A DNA stretch of 64,000 nucleotides from Pyropia haitanensis. Taxonomy: Eukaryota; Rhodophyta; Bangiophyceae; Bangiales; Bangiaceae. Both the position numbers and the translations under genes were made by a program. The stretch's first letter is position 1, and every line of letters starts with the position of its first letter. Shown here piece after piece: positions 20,990 through 36,537 of this stretch. The stretch covers positions 2,840,842-2,904,841 of the forward strand of contig SDUX01000006.1 in assembly GCA_008729055.1 (NCBI GenBank), written 5' to 3'. Under the pieces are notes generated by a model that ran no database searches, was not told the DNA's origin, and saw nothing but the letters and a program-made list of their open reading frames with translations.

Positions 20990-21974
20990 TGCGCCCGTGC
21001 CCGTGGCGCGCGCCCGCGTGTGCGACTGATAGGGCGAACGTGGGGGTGGGCGAGGGGGGGGAGGTGGCGAGGGATGAGGATGCCGGCGAGGAGCGGCTGG
21101 CTTTCCGCCACCTGGCCTGTGGTGCGCGTCGACATCTGTCCGCACCGTGGTGGGCGTGCGGATTCATTGCTCGAAATCTGCGGGTGTGGACGCGGCAAGA
21201 CCGGGTCACCCCGACGCCCGTGTGTGCTGTGAAGGGGGGAGGCGGCGGGAGGCGGGGGGGGGGAGGGGTTCGTGCCCCGCGAGCCAAAACTGTGTATTAT
21301 TCTTGACGCCTCGGTCATCTCACGTGCCGCGAGCGCCGTAGGCGCGGGTGGCAGGCGCCAGCAGCGGTGTCGCCGCGGCCGCTCGCGGCCGGCGGGCGAC
21401 CCGCCGACACCTGCCGCCCGCCCGCCCGCTAGCACACCCGCCAGCCCGCCCACCCACGCTCATGCCCGCCCGCCCGCCCGCCCGCTCGCCGTCCAGACCC
21501 GTTTACGTTTGCTGCCTGGCCGCCGACGCCGCTGGCGCCCGCGTTGGCCGCGCTCCGCCCGCGGTGCGCTCTCCCCGCCACCCTTGTGAGTCTGTCCCGC
21601 CACCGCCGCCGCACTCCCCAGCCCCCCTCCCCTATTCTCCCTCTGGCCTGGACCGCAACGCCTCGTACGCGGCGCACCTCGCGAGAAAAAAAAAAGCTGC
21701 CAACCGCAACACAGACCGGTGCCGCCGACGCGTCTGGTCCGAGGGTGGGCGCGTTCCTGGCTGGCACGGACCGCCACGGCGGCGGCCCGCGCCGAGACCG
21801 ACGGACAAGCTGAGGCGTTGGCGGTGACGGCAGGGGTGACATCCCCCCCCTCCCCCCCCCCCCCCTACTTCCACTGTGCCTGGGCGGCCTTTTGTGACCC
21901 GGTCGGCCGCCGTGCCACCCATGCGAGGGACGATAGTGTAAACAAGTAGGGCAGCCGCCCTCAGGCGGGCCTTT
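20990..21974. other. Gene-less convergent interval
   Basis: No coding similarity was recognised. The stretch 21410-21490 is a degenerate CCCG/CCCGC simple repeat. The segmental duplication begins at about 21975. Confidence 0.45.
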
Positions 21975-22170
21975 AACACTCCCATTGGAAAGACCCCGCT
22001 CGCAAGAAAGAGACCCACACCCGCGCACCGGCTCGCGCCGCCCCACCCGCCTCGCACCCCCCCACTACTACTAAACAATATGTACATGCGTGCACGCCGG
22101 CAGGACGGCCGCGGTGGTCGCGGCGCGTGCTGTCCACCCCGCCCCCCCGCCTCGGCGCTTCCCCGCCCCA

Positions 22171-25038
22171 CTATCCTTTGGCGCGTCTAGCCACCCACCG
22201 TGACGGCAGGCGGCGACGGCGTGCCAGCCGCACCCGCCGTGTCGTCGGCGATGGCCGACGGCGGCGCGGCGGCTGCGGCGCTCCCCCCCTCGTCGTTGGC
22301 GGCGGCGACCGGCGTGGCTGCCGCCAGTACCGCCGGTGCCGCTGCGTCGCCCGCCGGCAGCCGCCCGTTGGCAGCGGCTGCCTCCCCAGCCGCCGCCGGC
22401 ACCACCCCCCGCCGGCCACCCCCTCGCCGTCGGCGCCGTCGGCGGCTGCGCTGCCACCGTCCGTCGTCCTGTCCGTAGTGGTGGTGGCATCGGCATTGGC
22501 GGCGGTGGCCGCGGGCGTGGCGTCGAGCCGAGCCGCGTCCGACAGATCCCGCGCGGCGGTCGGCTCGTCGCCGCCGTCGCCGCCGCCGGCGCCTCCGTGC
22601 TGCAGCTCCCACATCCGGCGGTAGCGCCCCCCCTCGATGCGGCGGAGCGCGTCGTGTGTCCCCCGCTCGACGATGCGGCCGGCGTGGAGGACGAGGATCT
22701 CGTCCGCGCCGACCACCGTCGACAGCCGGTGGGCCACGACGAGCGTCGTCGCGCCCGCGCTCGCGTCGCGCAGCGCTGACTGCAGGGACCGCTCCGTCTC
22801 ACTGTCGAGGGAGGAGGACGACTCGTCGAGGACGACCACCGCGGGCGACCGCACCACCATCCGCGCAATGCCCACCCGCTGCCGCTCGCCGCCCGACAGC
22901 AGCACGCCGCGCTCGCCGCAGATGGACGCGAGGCCCTTGGGCAGCCGCCCGACCCAGTCAGTCAGCTGCGCGACGCGCGCGGCGGCCGCAACGTCCGCGT
23001 CGGGGACGTCGTCCCCGCCGCCGCGGCCGTAGGCAATGTTGGTGCGCACCGAGTCGCGGAGGAGGTGACAGTCTTGGGGCACGACGCCGATCGCGTCGCG
23101 GAGGGACTGCTGCGTGACGTGCGCCACGTCCTGGCCGTCGATCGTGATGCGGCCGGCCGAGACGTCAAACAGCCGCAGCAGCAGCCGGAGGAGGGTGGAC
23201 TTGCCCGACCCGGTGGGACCGACAATGGCGGTCGTCCCACCGGCGGGGACCGTGAAGGATATGTCGTGCAGTGCGCCCGCCGAGTCCGCCCCGTACGCAA
23301 ACGAGACGCCCTCAAAGCACACGCGGCCGCCGCGTGAGGTGGGCGTCGGGCACAGGACCAGCGGGGTCGCGTCGGGGGCGTCCACAACGTCGGGGCGCTC
23401 CTGGCGGATGTCCACCAGCTTGCGCAGCGACAGCATCGACGAGTGGAACCGGCGCACCGAGGAGGCCGCGTACGAGAACGGGTCAAAGATGCGACCCAGG
23501 AAGGTCTGAGCGGCGACAAAGTCCGCAACCGACAGGGTGCCGTCCATCACCCAGCGGCCGACCATGACCATCCCCGCCGCCATAAACAGCGACTCGATGA
23601 GCGACTGGCCGTTGCTGATCAGCACCGAAGTGGCGTAGGAGCGACCCCGCCGGGCGTTCTGCCGGCTAAGGAGCGCACGGTACCGGCGCACCTCCACCGC
23701 CTCGGTGGCAAACATCTTGACGTTCTCATAGTTCTTCAGCGAGTCTATTGCGCGCGACGAGTCGCGCGCGTCCGCCTTGAAAGACTGTTTTCGCTGCCGC
23801 ATCTGCAGGCGCGTGCCCACCCACGTAAAGGCAGCGTACACGCCGATGGCACCGGCCGCCAAGGCGGCCAGCCGCCACGAGCCGAGCTGCCAGAGCGCGG
23901 TCAGGTTCATAATCAGCTGCGCGACCATCGGCAAGATCTCAAAGCTGACAAGCTCGAGGAGCTCCGTCACCGATCTGATGCCAATGTAGAACAGGTAGAG
24001 CACGCGACTTGAGTTGCTGTTGAGGTGCCACCGCAGTGAGAGGCTGTGCAGGTGAGCAAACGTGGCGGTCTGGAGGTCCCGAAGAAGCGCTGCCTCCGCT
24101 GCGTTCCAGCTGAGCCACCGCACATCGATGAGGAGCCCAGAGATGTAGTCCGTGCAGATGTAGCCCACAATGGCGACCAGCGGGCGCTGGTACGCCGCCG
24201 TCGGGACGAGGCGGCCCGGGAGGAGGTGGAGGAGGCGCTCGGTGACGGCCGCCGGCATCCACGACGGCGCCGCCGCCGACGCAGCTCCGTCGGTCGTGTC
24301 ACGCGACGTGGCCGCGGCCGAGTTGGCCGCCCCGCCGGCCGCGGACGTGAGGCTATTCATGGCGTAGCGCAGCAGCAGCAGCTTGGCAACCGGGCACGCG
24401 TTGTGGGCGACCTCGGCGGCGACGGCCAACACAAAGAGCGCGCGCAGCGTGCGTGTACGCGGCACCACCCACGGCGCCGCCACGCGCAGGGCGCCCAGGG
24501 CCGACACCTTGGGCTCCTCCTTCTCGTCGTCCTCCTTGTCCTCGTCCCCCTTTTCCGCGTCCCCCTCTTTCTTGTCCTCGCCCTTGTCCGCCTCCTTCTT
24601 GTCGCCCTCCTTCTTGTTGTCTTTGCCACCAGACTTGGCCCCGTTCCCGTCACGGGCATCCTTGTCGTCGGCGACGCAGGCGGTCCCGTTGACACCCGCC
24701 TCTGGCTCCTCACTGCCGGCTATCACCGTGGCGGCAGTAGCGGTGGATGTAGATGGATTCGTCGACTTGGCGGCGGCGGCGGTGGCCGTGGCGCGGCCCA
24801 TCCGCCGCCGCAGGCCGGCCGCCCGGCTGGCCGCCGCGGCGAGCACGCGCGACAGCGCGCCGCCGCGGACGACCGTCGGCGACGCGGCGGCAGGGGCGGC
24901 CGCGGCGGCGGTGGGAGCGGCAGCGTCGCCGCCACCACCGCCGTCGCCGCCACTGCCAGTGTCGCCGGTGCCAGAGGCGGCAGCGACGGTGGCGTCGCCG
25001 ACGGCGCCCGCCGCGGGCGCCGCCCCCGCCAACGTCAT
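22171..25038 (-). CDS. ABCB-family half transporter (HMT1/ATM1-like), copy 1, C-terminal tail frameshifted
   Basis: This is a single exon of 955 residues starting at the ATG at 25038. The order is an Ala/Gly N-terminus, a charged linker of KE/DK repeats (about 130-180), and a transmembrane domain (about 185-500). The membrane domain carries the mitochondrial/vacuolar half-transporter signature AIDSLKNYENVKMFATE. The nucleotide-binding domain has Walker A GPTGSGKST near 607, Q-loop VVPQ, signature LSGGERQRVGIAR near 713, Walker B VVVLDESSSSLDSE and H-loop AHRLST. Relatives export glutathione conjugates, phytochelatin-metal or Fe-S precursors; substrate and membrane are not determinable here. 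After residue ~870 it differs from copy 2 because a C-run (near 22404-22409) has six C instead of seven. That replaces the Ala-rich tail by an Arg-rich one, outside the catalytic domain. Confidence 0.9.
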   Translation of the reverse strand: MTLAGAAPAAGAVGDATVAAASGTGDTGSGGDGGGGGDAAAPTAAAAAPAAASPTVVRGGALSRVLAAAASRAAGLRRRMGRATATAAAAKSTNPSTSTATAATVIAGSEEPEAGVNGTACVADDKDARDGNGAKSGGKDNKKEGDKKEADKGEDKKEGDAEKGDEDKEDDEKEEPKVSALGALRVAAPWVVPRTRTLRALFVLAVAAEVAHNACPVAKLLLLRYAMNSLTSAAGGAANSAAATSRDTTDGAASAAAPSWMPAAVTERLLHLLPGRLVPTAAYQRPLVAIVGYICTDYISGLLIDVRWLSWNAAEAALLRDLQTATFAHLHSLSLRWHLNSNSSRVLYLFYIGIRSVTELLELVSFEILPMVAQLIMNLTALWQLGSWRLAALAAGAIGVYAAFTWVGTRLQMRQRKQSFKADARDSSRAIDSLKNYENVKMFATEAVEVRRYRALLSRQNARRGRSYATSVLISNGQSLIESLFMAAGMVMVGRWVMDGTLSVADFVAAQTFLGRIFDPFSYAASSVRRFHSSMLSLRKLVDIRQERPDVVDAPDATPLVLCPTPTSRGGRVCFEGVSFAYGADSAGALHDISFTVPAGGTTAIVGPTGSGKSTLLRLLLRLFDVSAGRITIDGQDVAHVTQQSLRDAIGVVPQDCHLLRDSVRTNIAYGRGGGDDVPDADVAAAARVAQLTDWVGRLPKGLASICGERGVLLSGGERQRVGIARMVVRSPAVVVLDESSSSLDSETERSLQSALRDASAGATTLVVAHRLSTVVGADEILVLHAGRIVERGTHDALRRIEGGRYRRMWELQHGGAGGGDGGDEPTAARDLSDAARLDATPAATAANADATTTTDRTTDGGSAAADGADGEGVAGGGWCRRRLGRQPLPTGGCRRATQRHRRYWRQPRRSPPPTTRGGAPQPPRRRRPSPTTRRVRLARRRRLPSRWVARRAKG

Positions 25039-26361
25039 GGCCGCACGCGGCGCTGCAGCGGTCCGACGCACGGACAGGGACACAGCAGCTGCGTGCGCGG
25101 ACGACCCGATGGGGGAGAGGGTGGGCGGGCGAGCGCGATGCGGGTGCTGTGGGGACTGGGGAGGCGTGCAAGACGATGGCGGCGACGGACGGCGACAGCG
25201 GCGGTGGGGGTCCGTTTATATTGGCGGCAGCCAGCCGCCCAGAGCACGCACGCGGACGGCGCGACCCACTGTCTGTGGGCATTGGGGGGGGGGGTGGGGG
25301 TGGGGTGCGCGCGCCGCGGGGGGCGCGCGGCCAGCGTGGCCATGTCACGTGACGGTCGGCCCGCAAGCGCACAGACAGCGAGTGGGGGGGATCGGGGGGG
25401 GGGGCGTGTGACCAGGTGTAGCCGTGACTGCCTGCGGTCGGGGCGCGCCGCGCGTCGCAGCGGCTGTCACAGCGCCACCCACAGGCGTCCCAGGCAGGTA
25501 GCCAGGCACCTATTCCCCCACCCCCCCAACGCCCACCGCCGCCGCGGCTTCCACCCAAGGGGGCGAGGGGGCGCACCCGCCGCGGCTCAGGCAGCAATGC
25601 ATGACCGGGTTGTGGTGGGCGGCCGCCAGCGGTGGCGGCGGTGGCCCCCATCCCCCTCCACTCTCCCTCCCCAGCGGTGAGTACCTCGCCGCGTCGTCGG
25701 GCCCGCCGGCGGTTCCATCCGCCGTCACGGCCTCTCCTCCACAGCTGTTGCAACCACCGTCCCGTGGGCCCTGTGAGTGGAAGTGATCTGAGCGGGCCCA
25801 CGAGGTGGGGCGGCCGCCAGCCTGGGGGCGGGCCCCGCCTGATGTGGTCGGCGGCCGCAGGCGTCCACAAACTCCCGACAACGGGTCCTCGCTGGCTGGC
25901 AAATTACGGCAAGTAATTGTCTCTCTCAGCGACATGGACCGCAAGGACACCCACCTCGCGCCGTTCCCGCGTGGACGTGGTCCCGCGGCGCGGCGGCGGG
26001 CCCGCCGCCAGCCTTTATCCCCCCCCACCCCGCCCCTCCTTCCATCCATACCGCCGCGGGCTTGCTCCGGTTTGACGTTGTCCCACGGCTGTCGCTGTCC
26101 CGCCGCAGCCGCCGCCGATGCCGCCGACAACGCTAGCGAGCGAACTGCCGCCGCCGCCGCCGCTGCTGTCACTGCCGCCGCGAAGAGCTCGATAGAAAGC
26201 TGGGCATGGCGCCGCACCTGCCAGTGGCATGTGAGGCAGGTCACACCAAGTGGCAGGCGCTCGCCTCGTCACACCGGGTCCGTGGACCGCGACGGAGCGC
26301 TTCTGGGCAGACCGCGGCCTGGAGCGCCTGGTTTTTTGGGGTTCGACTGCAGTGGCAAAGG
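25039..26361. promoter_or_regulatory. Upstream region of ABC transporter copy 1
   Basis: This 1.3 kb is shared with copy 2. It holds a TATA-like TATAAAC on the minus strand (25214-25220) preceded by CCAAT (GCCAATATAAAC), about 176 bases before the ATG. No separate gene was recognised; the rest is GC-rich and low-complexity. Confidence 0.45.
25214..25220 (-). promoter_or_regulatory. TATA-like box of ABC transporter copy 1
   Basis: TATAAAC on the minus strand overlaps a CCAAT (GCCAATATAAAC). It is identical and at the same distance from the ATG in copy 2 (35383-35389). Confidence 0.45.
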
Positions 26362-26365
26362 CTAG
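26362..26365. other. Target-site duplication (CTAG), left side of transposon 1
   Basis: CTAG flanks both ends of the element (the other copy is at 27916-27919). The unoccupied site in duplication copy 2 has a single CTGG at 36538-36541. Confidence 0.75.
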
Positions 26366-26379
26366 TGTCTATTCTACCG

Positions 26380-26418
26380 ACCGGATCATTTGATCCTTTT
26401 CGGATCAAATGATCCGGT
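26380..26418. repeat. Subterminal hairpin pair, left end of transposon 1
   Basis: GGATCATTTGATCC (26383-26396) and GGATCAAATGATCC (26402-26415) are reverse complements. With flanking ACC/GGT they form a perfect 17-bp stem with a 5-base loop. Each 14-mer is itself a 5-bp stem (GGATC/GATCC) around ATTT. Confidence 0.9.
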
Positions 26419-26779
26419 TTTTCAGTGTCTGTTTTCTTCTAGTTCCCGCCACCTGCCGCCTTTTCTGAGGCCAGAAACGAACTCAGCGCCGTCTCTTTGC
26501 CCTTGGGGGAGCTCCGGTGCATCCAAGCCTGAGCAGAAGATGAGTTTGGCGCGCTTTTTGTCGAGTGCCCGGGCCGGTGGCGCTGCACCGGGGATCGCCG
26601 CCCGCGGCACCATGTGCCAGGTCTTGCGCGCCCGCCGCGTGCCGCGGACGCACAGAAGCAGAGAGAGCCTGGCGCGTGCGGGTTCCGCACACCATGGCCG
26701 AGCGCAGAGGGGGGGTCGACTACGGGAAAAGCCCCCTCAGCCGAACGGTTGCCAGTTTACTCCTCTTCCTTCACAGGTC

Positions 26780-27810
26780 TTCCCCTCTGCCCACCCCCGC
26801 GCCACGGCGGCGGCGGGTGCCCCGCCGGCGGGGGGCACCCCCCAGACGCCGGCGCGGGCGGGGGCGGGCGCCGCCCCGGTGGGCGGCGGCGTCCCCAGTG
26901 GCGGCACGCCGACGGCGGGCGGCGGCGGCGGGGTGGTGGCGGCGCCGCCGTTTGGGGCCACCCCCTCGACGTATGGGACGCCCTTTGGGGTGCGTCTGCG
27001 CGGCGGGGCGGCCACCCCCGGGGGGGGGCCCTTTGGGGGGGCCCTGCTTGGGGGATTTCGCTTTGGCGGTACGCCCCCCGCGGCGGCTTCAGCGAGCAGC
27101 GTTGCCGCCGCCGGCGGCAACGGCAGCGGCAGCGGCAGCGGCAGCGGCAGCGGCAGCGGCAACGGCGGAACGCCGTCGCGCGCGGCAGCGTCGCCGGCGC
27201 CCGCCGGCAGCGGCCGCGGCAGCAGCTGCCGGGTGTTAGCCCCACCGGCGGCCGGGAAGCGGGGAGGGCCGTCGCCCTTCCCGCCGGCGGCCTTCTCGCC
27301 CTTTTCGTCGCTCCTGCCGCCGCCGGCGACGGCGAAGGGGGACGGGGTGGGGGTCTGGCCTCCGGCGGAGGCGCCGTCACCTCCGCCTCCTCCGCCGCGC
27401 AGCCGTCGCCGTCGACGCCGGCGTAGGGGTCGGAGACGGCACTGGCGACGGCGGCTGTGCCGGCGACGACGCCGCCGCGGCGGGGTGGGGGCGCAACTTT
27501 GACGCCTCCGCCGGCGGGGGCGCCGCGGGCGCCCGTGTTCGGAGCCCTACCGGCACTGGGCAGGGGGCTGTGGTGCTGGCCGTGGCGCGGCCGTCGTTTG
27601 GGGCGCCCGGTCCAGGCGCACCTGCGCTCGTTGCGCCGGGCGCGCTGGCCGCCGTGGCGGGGCCTCTGCCTGCCGCCCCTCTCGTGGCGCCCCCGTCGTC
27701 GCCTTTGTGGTCGTCTTCGCCGGCGCTGCGAACGGCGCCGCGGCCGCCGGTCGCCGCGGGCGCCCCTCAGGCTGCGTCTGTAGCTCTCCGTAGCCTGGTG
27801 GAGGACAAAA
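26780..27810 (+). pseudogene. Coding-like cargo in transposon 1, possible captured gene fragment
   Basis: After an acceptor-like CCTTCACAG there is an open, Gly/Pro/Thr-rich frame with scattered FG dipeptides (PPFGATPSTYGTPFG, GGFRFGGTPPAA). Another frame near 27590 reads ARPSFGAPGPGAPAL. FG-rich disordered composition recalls nucleoporins, but no full domain is visible and more than one frame is needed. It is most simply a captured, decayed host exon. A functional protein is not supported. Confidence 0.3.
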
Positions 27811-27855
27811 AACCCTCTCAGATGCATGGAATCGACGATTTCTGGTCAGGTCAGG

Positions 27856-27897
27856 TGAGGATCAAATGATCCTCAGGTGAGGATCATTTGATCCTCA
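27856..27897. repeat. Subterminal hairpin pair, right end of transposon 1
   Basis: The 20-mers at 27856-27875 and 27878-27897 are exact reverse complements separated by GG. Their cores are again GGATCAAATGATCC and GGATCATTTGATCC, the same stem as at the left end. Confidence 0.9.
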
Positions 27898-27919
27898 TCT
27901 CCGGTAGAATAGACACTAG

Positions 27920-28285
27920 ACCCGGGCGCCAGAGCAGACGAATGCTCGGGTAGCCAACCAGATGCGCACGGTGATTTCATTTAAATCATGTCAATTTTCA
28001 TGAATAAAAATATACAACCAAGAGCTCTGTGATTTGAATCACATGGATTAAGAAAACAGATAAAGTGTACTTGGACGATATCTGTGGTAAGTGTACATTT
28101 TTGTGTAACTTCGGCGTTGCAGCGCATCGTTCGAAGAGTTTGTGGCCAGGATCTGACGTATTTGCTTCGTGCACCAAGCGAGGTCAGGGCGTGTCTTGAC
28201 GACATCTGGAAAGTGTCTGCGAATGCACAAAACACAGGCTGTAATTCCGTGGGCGCACGCAGCCAGACACGCCCTGTCTTGACGA
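27920..28285. other. AT-richer spacer between the two transposons
   Basis: After the last duplicated bases (to 27950) the spacer is AT-rich and has small palindromes (TGATTT-CATTT-AAATCA near 27970; GTGATTTGAATCAC near 28028). An 11-bp inverted repeat (AGGGCGTGTCT at 28186-28196, AGACACGCCCT at 28265-28275) overlaps a 12-bp direct repeat TGTCTTGACGAC (28192-28203, 28275-28286). It may be the relic of an older element. No gene was seen. Confidence 0.4.
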
Positions 28286-28303
28286 CTAGTGTCTATTCTA
28301 CTG

Positions 28304-28342
28304 ACCGCCTCATTTGAGGCGATTCGCCTCATTTGAGGCGGT
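28304..28342. repeat. Subterminal hairpin pair, left end of transposon 2
   Basis: GCCTCATTTGAGGC occurs at 28307-28320 and 28326-28339, flanked by ACC and GGT. Each unit is a 5-bp stem (GCCTC/GAGGC) around ATTT. Spacing is identical to transposon 1 but the stem sequence differs. Confidence 0.9.
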
Positions 28343-28810
28343 TTTTGGGTGCCCTTTTTCAAGGTCTTCCGCTCGTCAGACGAGGATTCTGACGCCAGAA
28401 ACGGACTCAGCGCAGTCTGTTTGTCCTTGGGGGAAGCGGAGTGCGTCCAACGACGATGGGCGGCCATCGGGTGGCGTCTTCTCTTCCGCGCCACGGAACG
28501 GTTCCCTTGATGCAACAACCGCGCTCCAGAGCGCCCAGAGAGCAAAGTGCCCGACCCGTAGAGGCTCGGCTGATGGCGCGCGCGCTCTTCTCTTCGTTTG
28601 GTCTGCCGCGCCGCGACCCGAGCCGCACGCAGGTCCCAGCAGCGGCCGCGCATGCGCGCCCGTTCCATGCCTGGTTCCCGTCGTCCACCTCTGCACTGTC
28701 GCGCACCGGCTGACCACGCACCCAATCCTGCACCATCTCTCTTTCATCTTGTGCCTGCTCCCGCGTGACCCCCCCACCCCCCCCCCTGTTTAGCACAATC
28801 TTTTTGCACC

Positions 28811-29179
28811 ATGGACGAGCGGCCGACCGCTGGCTGGTCGAACACGTCGGCCCCCAAGGCCGGCTCTTCCATTCGCTTTGCGATTGCTCCGCCGTTTCCC
28901 CCCGCCCCCGCTGCCACCCTAGCGCTCTCTCCAACCCCCTACCGCCCCCCCGTGGCTGACTCTGCCGGTCCCTCTGCGCTTGCCCGGCCGGTTACCCCAT
29001 CCCCCAGTGCCACCGTTGCCCCCTCTGCAACCCCCCCCTGCCGTCGCCAACGTTCTCTGGGGCCTGGCACGGACCCTCGCCTGGATGTGGGCGCGGAAGT
29101 GCACACCAAGGCAGCAGTGGTGGCTACGGCCGCTGCCACGGCCGTACAGACGGCAGCAGCGGCCTGCAAAAGTAAATGA
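28811..29179 (+). CDS. Hypothetical 122-residue open frame inside transposon 2
   Basis: The ATG sits in a strong context (CACCATGG) after a leader-like C/T-rich stretch. The product is Ala/Pro/Ser/Thr-rich (MDERPTAGWSNTSAPKAGSS...) and ends AAACKSK. No domain was recognised. It could be the 5' part of a host gene captured by the element, or chance coding in GC-rich DNA. Confidence 0.3.
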   Translation: MDERPTAGWSNTSAPKAGSSIRFAIAPPFPPAPAATLALSPTPYRPPVADSAGPSALARPVTPSPSATVAPSATPPCRRQRSLGPGTDPRLDVGAEVHTKAAVVATAAATAVQTAAAACKSK

Positions 29180-29587
29180 GGACCAGTGCCGGAAACATCC
29201 CCCAGGGACGGGAGACGGGGTGAGTGTTTAGGGACGGGAGGGGAAGGAGACGGAGCCCGTGGGCGGATGCTAGAGTGTGGCTGGTGGGACAACGGCGCGC
29301 AGCGGCGCGCCCGCGCCATCACTGTCTGCTCACGGCCGCGGGGGCCGGCCGGCACCGTCGTTGCCACCACCTCCGCGGCCGCCCCCGCCACCGCCGCCGC
29401 CGCCGCCGCGGCCCTCCCTCGCCGCACAAAGGGAAGGGGACGGGGTGGGGAGTGTGCAGAGTGGGAGAGAAGCGGGGGGAGGTGGCCAGGGGGTGCCGCA
29501 GGTGGAGCGGAAGCTGTCCGGAGAGGGTACCGACAGCCTCTTCTTTGTGAGACATGTCAAAATCGGCGATTTCCGGTGATCCGGGGG

Positions 29588-29627
29588 GAGCCTCATTTGA
29601 GGCTCGAGGCCGCCTCATTTGAGGCTC
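29588..29627. repeat. Subterminal hairpin pair, right end of transposon 2
   Basis: GCCTCATTTGAGGC occurs at 29590-29603 and 29612-29625, each extended by TC on the right and the first by GA on the left. All four hairpins of this element share the GCCTC/GAGGC stem. Confidence 0.9.
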
Positions 29628-29826
29628 AAGTGCAGTAGAATAGACACTAGACAACGTGCACGAGCAATCGTTGGTGACTGCGGGATACGACGGCGAGGGG
29701 TGGGCTACCTTCTTGCACACCACACGATTGCGCGAGGAGAGACGGCGTGCCTGGAGGCTCGGAGAGCCCCGAAGAGGTTCTCTCGTCTGCCCTTGCGGAT
29801 CTTGTTTTGCGGCGACGGCGTGTTTT

Positions 29827-29865
29827 TTTGTGGTCGGAAAAACACACTGCATTTCCGACCACAAA
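29827..29865. repeat. Perfect 14-bp inverted repeat with 11-base loop
   Basis: TTTGTGGTCGGAAA (29827-29840) and TTTCCGACCACAAA (29852-29865) are exact reverse complements. No flanking gene explains the hairpin. Confidence 0.85.
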
Positions 29866-32042: not shown

Positions 32043-32354
32043 CCTCCGCAAGACAAGAAGCAGCTCAGGCTACAGTGAAATATTCGCGGCTAGGGCATTT
32101 TCGCTATCGCGCTCCATGTAATTCAAGTCTCACCTCTGCCTGCAACACTCCCTTTGGAAAGACCCCGCTCACAAGACAGAGACCCACACCCGCGCACCGG
32201 CTCGCGCCGCCCCACCCCCCCCGCACCCCCCCATTACTACTAAAAAAATGTACATGCGTACACGCCGGCAGGACGGCCGCGGTGGTCGCGGCGCGTGCTG
32301 TCCACCCAGCCCCCCCACCTCGGCGCTTCCCCGCCCCCCTATCCTTTGGCGCGT

Positions 32355-35207
32355 CTAGCCACCCACCGTGACGGCAGGCGGCGACGGCGTGCCAGCCGCA
32401 CCCGCCGTGTCGTCGGCGATGGCCGACGGCGGCGCGGCGGCCGTGGCGCTCCCCCCCTCGTCGTTGGCGGCGTCGACCGGCGCGGCTGCCGCCAGTACCG
32501 CCGGTGCCGCCGCGTCGCCCGCCGGCAGCCGCCCGTTGGCAGCGGCTGCCTCCCCAGCCGCCGCCGGCACCACCCCCCCGCCGGCCACCCCCTCGCCGTC
32601 GGCGCCGTCGGCGGCTGCGCTGCCACCGTCCGTCGTCCGGTCGGTAGTGGTGCTGGCATCGGCATTGGCGGCGGTGGCCGCGGGCGCGGCGTCGAGCCGA
32701 GCCGCGTCTGACAGATCCCGCGCGGCGGTCGGCTCGTCGCCGCCGTCGCCGCCGCCGGCGCCCCCGTGCTGCAGCTCCCACATCCGGCGGTAGCGCCCCC
32801 CCTCGATGCGGCGGAGCGCGTCGTGTGTCCCCCGCTCGACGATGCGGCCGGCGTGGAGGACGAGGATCTCGTCCGCGCCGACCACCGTCGACAGCCGGTG
32901 GGCCACGACGAGCGTCGTCGCGCCCGCGCTCGCGTCGCGCAGCGCTGACTGCAGGGACCGCTCCGTCTCACTGTCGAGGGAGGAGGACGACTCGTCGAGG
33001 ACGACCACCGCGGGCGACCGCACCACCATCCGCGCAATGCCCACCCGCTGCCGCTCGCCGCCCGACAGCAGCACGCCGCGCTCGCCGCAGATGGACGCGA
33101 GGCCCTTGGGCAGCCGCCCGACCCAGTCAGTCAGCTGCGCGACGCGCGCGGCGGCCGCAACGTCCGCGTCGGGGACGTCGTCCCCGCCGCCGCGGCCGTA
33201 GGCAATGTTGGTGCGCACCGAGTCGCGGAGGAGGTGACAGTCTTGGGGCACGACGCCGATCGCGTCGCGGAGGGACTGCTGCGTGACGTGCGCCACGTCC
33301 TGGCCGTCGATCGTGATGCGGCCGGCCGAGACGTCAAACAGCCGCAGCAGCAGCCGGAGGAGGGTGGACTTGCCCGACCCGGTGGGACCGACAATGGCGG
33401 TCGTCCCACCGGCGGGGACCGTGAAGGATATGTCGTGCAGTGCGCCCGCCGAGTCCGCCCCGTACGCAAACGAGACGCCCTCAAAGCACACGCGGCCGCC
33501 GCGTGAGGTGGGCGTTGGGCACAGGACCAGCGGGGTCGCGTCGGGGGCGTCCACAACGTCGGGGCGCTCCTGGCGGATGTCCACCAGCTTGCGCAGCGAC
33601 AGCATCGACGAGTGGAACTGGCGCACCGAGTAGGCCGCGTACGAGAACGGGTCAAAGATGCGACCCAGGAAGGTCTGAGCGGCGACAAAGTCCGCAACCG
33701 ACAGGGTGCCGTCCATCACCCAGCGGCCGACCATGACCATCCCCGCCGCCATAAACAGCGACTCGATGAGCGACTGGCCGTTGCTGATCAGCACCGAAGT
33801 GGCGTAGGAGCGACCCCGCCGGGCGTTCTGCCGGCTAAGGAGCGCACGGTATCGGCGCACCTCCACCGCCTCGGTGGCAAACACCTTGACGTTCTCATAG
33901 TTCATCAGCGAGTCTATTGCGCGCGACGAGTCGCGCGCGTCCGCCTTGAAAGACTGTTTTCGCTGCCGCATCTGCAGGCGCGTGCCCACCCACGTAAAGG
34001 CAGCGTACACGCCAATGGCACCGGCCGCCAAGGCGGCCAGCCGCCACGAGCCGAGCTGCCAGAGCGCGGTCAGGTTCATGATCAGCTGCGCGACCATCGG
34101 TAAGATCTCAAAGCTGACAAGCTCGAGGAGCTCCGTCACCGATCTGATGCCAATGTAGAACAGGTAGAGCACGCGACTTGAGTTGCGGTTGAGGTGCCAC
34201 CGCAGTGAGAGGCTGTGCAGGTGAGCAAACGTGGCGGTCTGGAGGTCCCGAAGAAGCGCTGCCTCCGCTGCGTTCCAACTGAGCCTTTGCACATTCCTGA
34301 GGAGCCCAGAGATGTAGTCCGTGCAGATGTAGCCCACAATGGCGACCAGCGGGCGCTGGTACGCCGCCGTCGGGACGAGGCGGCCCGGGAGGAGGTGGAG
34401 GAGGCGCTCGGTGACGGCCGCCGGCACCCACGACGGCGCCGCCGCCGACGAAGCTCCGTCGGTCGTGTCACGCGACGTGACCGCGGCCGAGTCGGCCGCC
34501 CCGCCGGCCGCAAACATGAGGCTATTCATGGCGTAGCGCAGCAGCAGCGGCTTGGCGAACCGGCACGCGTTGCGGGCGACCTCGGCGGCGACGGCCAACA
34601 CAAAGAGCGCGCGTAGCGTGTGTGTACGCGGCACCACCCACGGCGCCGCCACGCGCAGGGCGCCCAGGGCCGACACCTTGGGCTCCTCCTTCTCGTCGTC
34701 CTCCTTGTCCTCGTCCCCCTTTTCCGCGTCCCCCTCTTTCTTGTCCTCGCTCTTGTCCTCCTCCTTCTTGTCGCCCTCCTTCTTGTCGTCTTTGCCACCA
34801 GACTTGGCCCCGTTCCCGTCACGGGCATCCTTGTCGTCGGCGACGCAGGCGGTCCCGTTGACACCCGCCTCTGGCTCCTCACTGCCGGCTACCACCGTGG
34901 CGGCAGTAGCGGCGGATGTAGATGGTGTCGTCGACTTGGTGGCGGCGGCGGTGGCCGTGGCGCGGCCCACCCGCCGCCGCAGGCCGGCCGCCCGGCTGGC
35001 CGCCGCGGCGAGCACGCGCGACAGCGCGCCGCCGCGGACGACCGTCGGCGACGCGGCGGCAGGGGCGGCCGCGGCGGCGGTGGGAGCGGCAGCGTCGCCG
35101 CCACCACCGCCGTCGCCGCCACTGCCAGTGTCGCCGGTGTCAGAGGCGGCAGCGACGGTGGCGTCGCCGACGGCGCCCGCCGCGGGCGCCGCCCCCGCCA
35201 ACGTCAT
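32355..35207 (-). CDS. ABCB-family half transporter (HMT1/ATM1-like), copy 2
   Basis: This is a single exon of 950 residues starting at the ATG at 35207. The domain order is as in copy 1: charged KE/DK linker, transmembrane domain with AIDSLMNYENVKVFATE, then the nucleotide-binding domain (GPTGSGKST, LSGGERQRVGIAR, VVVLDESSSSLDSE, AHRLST). The Walker B region has DESSSSLD where most ABCB proteins have DEATSALD. Amino-acid differences from copy 1 cluster in the membrane domain (RNVQRLSWNAAEA versus IDVRWLSWNAAEA; NACRFAKPLLLR versus NACPVAKLLLLR), which could alter substrate handling. The tail stays in the Ala/Thr-rich frame (ends PPAVTVGG), so copy 2 is taken as the intact form. An endomembrane or organelle export role is family knowledge; the substrate is unknown. 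Confidence 0.92.
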   Translation of the reverse strand: MTLAGAAPAAGAVGDATVAAASDTGDTGSGGDGGGGGDAAAPTAAAAAPAAASPTVVRGGALSRVLAAAASRAAGLRRRVGRATATAAATKSTTPSTSAATAATVVAGSEEPEAGVNGTACVADDKDARDGNGAKSGGKDDKKEGDKKEEDKSEDKKEGDAEKGDEDKEDDEKEEPKVSALGALRVAAPWVVPRTHTLRALFVLAVAAEVARNACRFAKPLLLRYAMNSLMFAAGGAADSAAVTSRDTTDGASSAAAPSWVPAAVTERLLHLLPGRLVPTAAYQRPLVAIVGYICTDYISGLLRNVQRLSWNAAEAALLRDLQTATFAHLHSLSLRWHLNRNSSRVLYLFYIGIRSVTELLELVSFEILPMVAQLIMNLTALWQLGSWRLAALAAGAIGVYAAFTWVGTRLQMRQRKQSFKADARDSSRAIDSLMNYENVKVFATEAVEVRRYRALLSRQNARRGRSYATSVLISNGQSLIESLFMAAGMVMVGRWVMDGTLSVADFVAAQTFLGRIFDPFSYAAYSVRQFHSSMLSLRKLVDIRQERPDVVDAPDATPLVLCPTPTSRGGRVCFEGVSFAYGADSAGALHDISFTVPAGGTTAIVGPTGSGKSTLLRLLLRLFDVSAGRITIDGQDVAHVTQQSLRDAIGVVPQDCHLLRDSVRTNIAYGRGGGDDVPDADVAAAARVAQLTDWVGRLPKGLASICGERGVLLSGGERQRVGIARMVVRSPAVVVLDESSSSLDSETERSLQSALRDASAGATTLVVAHRLSTVVGADEILVLHAGRIVERGTHDALRRIEGGRYRRMWELQHGGAGGGDGGDEPTAARDLSDAARLDAAPAATAANADASTTTDRTTDGGSAAADGADGEGVAGGGVVPAAAGEAAAANGRLPAGDAAAPAVLAAAAPVDAANDEGGSATAAAPPSAIADDTAGAAGTPSPPAVTVGG

Positions 35208-36537
35208 GGCCGCACGCGGCGCTGCAGCGGTCCGACGCACGGACAGGGACACAGCAGCTGCGTGCGCGGACGACCCGATGGGGGAGAGGGTGGGCGGGCG
35301 AGCGCGATGCGCGTGCCGTGGGGACTGGGGAGGCGTGCAAGACGATGGCGGCGACGGACGGCGGCTGCGGCGGTGGGGGTCCGTTTATATTGGCGGCAGC
35401 CAGCCGCCCAGAGCACGCACGCGGACGGCGCGACCCACTGTCTGTGGGCGTTGGAGGGGGGAGTGGGGGTGGTGGGGTGCGCGCGCCGCGGGAGGCGCGC
35501 GGCCAGCGTGGCCACGTCACGTGACGGTCGGCCCGCAAGCGCACAGACAGCGAGTGGGGGGGATCGGGGGGGGGGGGGTGTGACCAGGTGTAGCCGTGAC
35601 TGCCTGCGGTCGGGGCGCGCCGCGCGTCGCAGCGGCCCACACAGCGCCACACACAGGCGTCCCAGGCTGGCAGCCAGGCACCCATTCTCCAACGCCCCCA
35701 ACGCCCACCGCCGCCGCGGCTGCCACCCAAGGGGGCGGGGGGGCGCACCCGCCGCGGCTCAGGCAGCAATGCATGACCGGGTTGTGGTGGGCGGCCGCCA
35801 GCGGTGGCGGCGGTGTGGCCCCCATCCCCCTCCACTCTCCCTCCCCAGCGGTGAGCACCTCGCCGCGTCGTCGGGCCCGCCGGCGGTTCCATCCGCCGTC
35901 ACGGCCTCTCCTCCACAGCTGTTGCAACCACCGTCCCGTGGGCCCTGTGAGTGGAAGTGATCTGAGCGGCCCCACGAGGCGGGGCGGCCGCCAGCCTGGG
36001 GGCGGGCCCCGCCTGATGTGGTCGGCGGCCGCAGGCGTCCACAAACTCCCGACAACGGGTCCTCGCTGGCTGGCAAATTACGATTGATAAATGTCTCTCT
36101 CAGCGTCATGGACCGCAAGGACACCCACCTCGCGCCGTTCCCGCGTGGACGTGGTCCCGCGGCGCGGGGGCGGGCCCGCCGCCAGCTTTACCCCCCCCCA
36201 CCCCGCCCCTCCTCGCATCCATACCGTCGCGGGCTTGCTCCGGTTCGATGTTGTCCCACGGCAGTCGCTGTCCCGCCGCAGCCGCCGCCGATGCCGCCGA
36301 CAACGCTAGCGACCGAACTGCCGCCGCCGCCGCCGCCGCTACTGCCACTGCCGCCACGAAGAGCTCGATAGAAAGCTGGGCATGGCGCTGCACCTGCCAG
36401 TGGCACGTGGGGCAGGCCGCACCAAGTGGCGGGCGCTCGCCTGGTCACAGTGGGGCGGTGGACCACGACGGAGCGCTTCTGGGCAGACCGCGGCCTTGAG
36501 CGCCTGGTTTTTTGGGGTGCCACGGAATTGGCGACGG
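35208..36537. promoter_or_regulatory. Upstream region of ABC transporter copy 2
   Basis: This holds the same TATA/CCAAT arrangement as copy 1 (35383-35389, minus strand). The rest matches copy 1 with scattered substitutions and small indels, for example at 35630-35700. No separate gene was recognised. Confidence 0.45.

Follow-up and report, generated by a model that had tools for sequence, protein, structure and literature searches.

Subfamily-specific palindromes behind an invariant tip in a CTAG-duplicating group of piggyBac-superfamily elements from the red alga Pyropia haitanensis

The solved complexes of the piggyBac superfamily are the closest reference for the transposons considered here, two of which lie in a 64-kb stretch of the Pyropia haitanensis genome (contig SDUX01000006.1; this whole stretch is denoted the window). 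In piggyBac from Trichoplusia ni, the two cysteine-rich domains (CRDs) of the transposase dimer bind to a palindrome in the left end (bp 17-33) and bend the DNA, and the rest of the dimer holds the outer 16 bp; the near-strict choice of TTAA is explained by how the unpaired TTAA is held (PMC7351741). In piggyBat from Myotis lucifugus, a palindrome (P1) is located at bp 19-30, and the CRD touches bp 19 and 20 via R543 and E545 (PMC11707139). A number of piggyBac-like elements are known to carry inner or subterminal inverted repeats at both ends (PMC12324416), and the CRDs of the superfamily are known to be diverse (PMC8086355).

The algal elements share with piggyBac the superfamily, fold, DDD triad, asymmetric ends, a 4-bp duplication and a palindromic internal repeat near the tip (bound there by the CRD dimer, bp 17-33); they differ in the duplicated sequence (TTAA there, CTAG here), in the number of palindromes per end (one there, two here) and in CRD sequence (PMC7351741). 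With piggyBat they have in common the position of the first palindrome, an aligning cysteine-rich segment and several (here candidate) transposase sites on one end, whereas piggyBat targets TTAA, has a longer stretch between the CxxC motifs, and carries its palindromes on the left end only, one every 44 bp, instead of 19 and 22 bp apart on both ends (PMC11707139, PMC13405395). The piggyBac-like elements with inner repeats also target TTAA, and the excerpted account of them describes no coexisting subfamilies whose palindromes differ as a set (PMC12324416). The original prediction, made from the window alone, knew of no described family with this arrangement; here it has to be corrected, as piggyBac has one CRD palindrome per end and piggyBat three on the left end (PMC7351741, PMC11707139).

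Direct re-reading of the window returned the coordinates, termini and all eight 14-base palindromes of the two elements as originally placed:

26362..26365, no strand: CTAG target-site duplication, left side of element 1 (flank read)
26366..27915, + strand: element 1, 1550 bp, non-autonomous subfamily A copy (by tips and end layout)
26366..26377, + strand: left tip of element 1, TGTCTATTCTAC
26383..26396, no strand: left outer palindrome of element 1, GGATCATTTGATCC, bp 18-31 from the tip
26402..26415, no strand: left inner palindrome of element 1, GGATCAAATGATCC, bp 37-50 from the tip
27859..27872, no strand: right inner palindrome of element 1, GGATCAAATGATCC
27881..27894, no strand: right outer palindrome of element 1, GGATCATTTGATCC
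27904..27915, - strand: right tip of element 1, TGTCTATTCTAC inverted
27916..27919, no strand: CTAG target-site duplication, right side of element 1 (flank read)
28286..28289, no strand: CTAG target-site duplication, left side of element 2 (flank read)
28290..29646, + strand: element 2, 1357 bp, non-autonomous subfamily D copy (by similarity to a transposase-coding D copy)
28290..28301, + strand: left tip of element 2, TGTCTATTCTAC
28307..28320, no strand: left outer palindrome of element 2, GCCTCATTTGAGGC
28326..28339, no strand: left inner palindrome of element 2, GCCTCATTTGAGGC
29590..29603, no strand: right inner palindrome of element 2, GCCTCATTTGAGGC
29612..29625, no strand: right outer palindrome of element 2, GCCTCATTTGAGGC
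29635..29646, - strand: right tip of element 2, TGTCTATTCTAC inverted
29647..29650, no strand: CTAG target-site duplication, right side of element 2 (flank read)

All four sites of element 1 are of the GGATC/GATCC type, and all four of element 2 of the GCCTC/GAGGC type. The pattern GNNTCAWWTGANNC occurs eight times in the window, exclusively at these sites, compared with a chance expectation of 0.055 on average and 2 at most (200 first-order Markov simulations of the window).

The same architecture recurs throughout the assembly (52.9 Mb, 136 contigs). A 16-base pattern of CTAG plus tip, with up to 2 mismatches, gave 208 matches, its reversed control 1; palindrome pairs with the left-end spacing were found at 103 places versus 0 (this pattern is its own reverse complement, each place being counted on both strands). 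End patterns anchored on tip and outer palindrome, with up to 3 mismatches, yielded 103 left-type and 104 right-type ends, and none in the controls. Each end was then joined to the next facing end within 10 kb irrespective of type. Among the ends listed (100 per type), this gave at least 84 paired elements, all combining a left with a right end (49 in one orientation, 35 in the other), with 32 ends unpaired; two of the 84 exceed 5 kb and may include other sequence. Each end consists of two 14-bp palindromes of the form G-N-N-TCA-W-W-TGA-N-N-C at a fixed distance from an invariant 12-bp tip, starting at bp 18 and 37 on the left and bp 22 and 44 on the right. All eight half-sites were read in 45 elements with both ends (42 of these belong to the 84 pairs). 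To derive consensus ends, 42 of these elements were grouped into seven subfamilies (A 20, B 9, C 3, D 4, E 3, F 1, I 2), leaving out a chimera, an insert-bearing copy and one A-like copy with deviating flank letters; the tip is TGTCTATTCTAC in all seven. Subfamily A is the commonest, with at least 39 paired copies. Two of its copies are interrupted by a different small element (about 550 bp, ends GGGCACGTCCACCAATGTCG), at L036:310-863 in one case and in the right end of the first L035 element in the other. An array of five elements in the order A-B-A-B-A (L037, contig C1:53800-62900; repeat unit about 2645 bp) probably stems from segmental duplication of one pair of neighbouring A and B copies.

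The flanks of the 45 elements read CTAG on both sides in 40 cases and CTAC on both sides in two (subfamilies I and B); three pairs are non-identical, with one or two changes from CTAG, and none is TTAA. A further element on contig C56 is flanked by CGAG on both sides, and one on C10 by CTAG. Since CTAC and CGAG are not palindromic, these flanks are direct 4-bp duplications, which argues against duplication of TA between fixed outer letters. Exactly 4 bases separate neighbouring elements, in many cases from different subfamilies, at ten junctions (contigs C1 and C6-C10; one tandem array accounts for two), as expected if one element inserts into the CTAG next to another. Such close neighbours look commoner than a random choice of CTAG sites would produce. 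The window holds 40 CTAG and 16 TTAA. An empty site was sought in a 97% duplication within the window and was not found there, the duplication ending 23 bp before element 1, and no genome-wide search for empty sites was made. Canonical piggyBac/TTAA tips begin with CC[C/T]T (PMC2872659), a start that the tip TGTCTATTCTAC does not have, and other tips, e.g. CAC, are described in bee elements (PMC10140906). Deviations from TTAA are reported for some bee elements, where mutation was suggested (PMC10140906), for some beetle elements (PMC12732532), and for the minority of experimental insertions in which piggyBac itself uses a divergent tetranucleotide (PMC12324416). A clade with regular CTAG duplication was not found in the piggyBac literature searched; Repbase lay outside this search, and an earlier description is possible. 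As CTAG is palindromic like TTAA, seamless excision would be possible in principle by analogy.

The palindromes vary between subfamilies in an ordered manner. Half-site positions 2-3 read GA, CC or CA depending on the subfamily. When the four outer half-sites of the 84 pairs (among the ends listed) are compared, they are identical in 56 (39 GGATC, 8 GCCTC, 9 GCATC); 17 pairs, belonging to subfamily B, show GGATC with one constant GGCTC half, and six, all of subfamily E, a mixture of GCATC and GGATC. One pair joins a left GGATC/GGCTC end to a right GCATC end, and four show a single-base departure. With all eight half-sites considered, 27 of the 45 elements are uniform and nine are B copies with the fixed deviant half, one of them with a further change; the rest are three mixed E, two partly degenerate I, two A with one base changed, the chimera, and the copy with a foreign insert in its right end. 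The original claim of one stem per element is consequently valid for most elements (56 of 84 by outer sites, 27 of 45 by all eight) and fails for subfamilies B and E and a few others. Mixing of stems, named beforehand as a sign of chance, does exist, but it is structured by subfamily and not random.

The change of the sites as a set, also noted originally, is clearest between A and D: positions 2 and 3 differ in 8/8 half-sites and positions 1, 4, 5 and 6 in 0/8, while outside the half-sites 12/27 flanking and 0/24 tip positions differ. Between the A and C half-sites, only position 2 differs (8/8), and positions 1, 4, 5 and 6 are invariant among the A-E consensus sites. Subfamily E looks like an intermediate, which suggests that the change was stepwise rather than sudden. 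One might ascribe such uniformity to homogenisation within an element by gene conversion or local duplication, a copying effect that requires no selective reader. The sites are short repeats of one another, and the F-type left end L094 (contig C10:758380-758470), with a single palindrome, apparently lacks one 19-bp unit compared with L034, so that turnover of units may occur. Yet the centres (ATTT, AAAT, AATT) and spacers vary within an element while the half-site letters agree, whereas conversion would carry neighbouring bases too, and A and D half-sites have changed at positions 2-3 only. Homogenisation is not needed to account for the data and is unlikely.

The sites had originally been read as hairpins, which raises the question of recognition by shape, i.e. 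of hairpins or cruciforms handled as in IS200/IS605 or REP/RAYT systems, with stems drifting in compensated pairs. REP/RAYT systems act through single-stranded hairpin recognition, and the bacterial REP palindrome families are reportedly tied to their own transposases, of the tyrosine type, which would provide a precedent; pairing is also kept here through changes on both sides. Free drift, however, should yield four differing stems, yet the sites mostly agree, with the four positions named above fixed among A-E. Moreover, palindrome positions 6 (A) and 9 (T) are complementary, so that the outer bases of the supposed loop pair with each other. Because pairing runs into this 'loop' and AATT centres occur, the sites are not stems with a loop of four bases but palindromes of duplex DNA centred on A/T.

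The enzyme gives a further argument. Transposase relatives are encoded at 16 places in the genome, nine of which sit in copies with at least one recognisable family end, bearing out the expectation that longer, transposase-coding copies exist:

Subfamily I, half-site GGATTA: two copies, 98% alike, both ends
Subfamily B, half-site GGATCA: four copies, three with both ends, one with the right end only
Subfamily D, half-site GCCTCA: one copy with two stops, right end only
Subfamily C, half-site GCATCA: one copy with one stop, right end only
Lineage E2, half-site GCATCA: one copy, left end and outer right end

A slice at the expected left end of one B copy (L055) did not reveal that end (L093). 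The DDE_Tnp_1_7 core (PF13843) is matched at 131 bits (E 8.2e-38) and 124 bits (E 1e-35), where the cut-off is 22.4 bits, and it is the sole Pfam match of the encoded enzyme. HUH elements, such as IS200/IS605 and RAYT, are defined by an HUH tyrosine transposase; the algal enzyme is not of this kind and is unrelated to that of REP/RAYT, with which the family shares the pairing of palindrome families with own transposases. The protein models well, and its predicted structure has the piggyBac fold, matching piggyBac and piggyBat far above everything else; piggyBat is also the best sequence match in the PDB. Within 51 proteins (485 relatives were found among 7,997 candidates scored in a protein collection), D360 is invariant and D146 and D238 are at least 90% conserved; this DDD triad aligns with piggyBat D237, D309 and D413 in a hidden Markov model alignment (numbering offset of 6 inferred from these residues). 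A C-terminal cysteine-rich domain, putatively zinc-binding, is formed by C479, C482, C491, C494, C506, C514, H518 and H523, each at least 90% conserved. As regards a CRD of the piggyBat or of the piggyBac fold type, the sequence alignment reaches the piggyBat CRD, and the structural alignment, a whole-protein comparison, spans it. With a piggyBac-superfamily DDD transposase, whose solved relatives bind duplex palindromes via a dimer of the zinc-binding domain, the original notion of hairpin recognition is abandoned, and shape recognition is very improbable. The family is a member of the piggyBac superfamily by its protein, and by target site and tip it is not canonical piggyBac/TTAA.

Over the aligned parts, the other proteins are 53-59% identical to the I protein; the proteins have thus diverged widely between lineages whose tips are the same. 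Pairwise CRD identity is 43-69%, and the region between the CxxC motifs diverges strongly (HVHRTTWV, KTHRTTAV, KEHRTTMV, KRKGTSYV, TRFKSCLV). Two residues beyond the second cysteine, both lineages with GG half-sites have V or T, and the three with GC have E, R and R; as this position was picked after the fact from five lineages, it is no more than a lead towards a residue-to-base code. More distant, degenerate relatives (37-44% identical, with stops) are clustered on contig C8 (C8:4607529-4631113 and C8:4710509-4711669; L061-L064, L066), and no family ends were recognised around this cluster. A scan of viral contigs gave one relative with 49% identity (L096) and, in the 11 kb examined, no CTAG- or TTAA-flanked inverted ends (at least 10/14 bases alike).

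The outer left palindrome covers bp 18-31, with the variable letters at bp 19 and 20. Because CRD sites of the relatives lie at the same place and the region between the CxxC motifs is divergent, the palindromes are read as duplex sites of a CRD dimer and the stem letters as a lineage address. That non-autonomous elements are mobilised by piggyBac-superfamily transposases, with a lineage-specific CRD reading lineage-specific half-sites while tip and spacing stay fixed, is in our view probable, and the originally proposed element-specific code read by the transposase is probably right. The enzyme core would recognise the invariant 12-bp tip, cut, and insert at CTAG, duplicating 4 bp, with an excision chemistry presumed from the superfamily. 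Each autonomous lineage would have its own CRD and its own letters at half-site positions 2-3 (once also 5); a shift in CRD preference would select all eight half-sites of the elements moved to the new letters, tip and spacing unchanged, and non-autonomous copies would follow whichever lineage moves them. Another conceivable reader is a dimeric host protein, a regulator or silencing factor, whose sites were picked up by the elements. Symmetric sites with an A/T centre do suit many dimeric regulators, but the pattern is confined to the two elements within the window, the position of the outer left site is that of CRD binding in relatives, and several versions coexist in one genome, each with different transposases, making a host protein extremely improbable.

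The two window elements fit an assignment to transposase lineages to different degrees. Element 1 is 78% identical to the ends of transposase-coding subfamily B over 159 bp on the left and 88% over 60 bp on the right, and the interior of element 1/subfamily A (26525-27855) had no match in the seven transposase-bearing loci compared; from the common half-site, the B enzyme may move A copies. Element 2 seems to have arisen by internal deletion from a transposase-coding copy of the D type, as 29110-29646 and 28979-29112 are 89% and 93% identical, respectively, to two segments that lie far apart in the D copy L057 (contig C6).

Several observations weigh against recognition of the half-sites by the CRD as outlined above. 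Two palindromes on both ends is the layout of neither solved complex. piggyBat R543 and E545 align with a gap, falling between the CxxC motifs in a four-residue stretch absent from the algal proteins; the correspondence is consequently one of region, not of residue. Across the five lineages, CRD and half-site do not correspond one-to-one: CRD similarity is highest (68-69%) between B (GGATCA) and E2 (GCATCA), and C and E2, with a common GCATCA, have CRDs only 51% identical. No transposase copy belonging to subfamily A was found among the transposase places of the genome. Half-sites are mixed in subfamily E (five GC, three GG), one half is constantly GGCTC in B, and I has partly degenerate sites, with GGATT in 5/8 half-sites of its better copy. 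The chimera (L039, contig C3:6377854-6379144, CTAG on both sides) combines a left end of B with a right end of F, its right 415 bp being 99% identical to F and the remainder about 98-100% to B. When half-sites were shuffled among A-F (subfamily I was left out owing to its degenerate sites and a right-end consensus out of register by one base), the observed agreement of 146/168 pairs was never reached in 200,000 trials (largest 93), but since the test takes no account of common descent, what it demonstrates is that half-sites cluster by subfamily, not why they do.

Around the elements, the window contains a tandem duplication (97% identical) of an ABC-transporter gene region, at 21969-26342 and 32138-36518, the first copy of which ends about 23 bp before the start of element 1. 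Among hits with a species name, the best match of this transporter gene is in Pyropia vietnamensis (73%), and Pyropia yezoensis (73%, over 60%) and Porphyra umbilicalis (60%) match as well, while one further entry reaches 97%; this places the host within the Bangiales red algae. A short inverted repeat (gtggtcggaa ... ttccgaccac), seen by eye only, lies immediately 3' of element 2 at about 29828-29865.

At least four half-site versions (GGATCA, GCATCA, GCCTCA, GGATTA) are present in one genome with identical tips and different transposases. The coexistence of address versions on identical tips and the CTAG target appear to be new, the kind of structure, a palindrome for a protein dimer, being already known. 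We lean towards the view of a clade that switched its target from TTAA to CTAG and whose CRD and palindrome together serve as an exchangeable address, families splitting by address rather than by tip. piggyBac is in wide use for genome engineering, and a natural lineage duplicating CTAG offers a direct comparison for the residues that set the target. Where tips are identical and palindromes differ, exchanging a single small domain and a single short site would be a way to test how transposon families come to be independent. If the view of an exchangeable address is true, the clade would constitute a natural data set for the recognition code between CRD and DNA.

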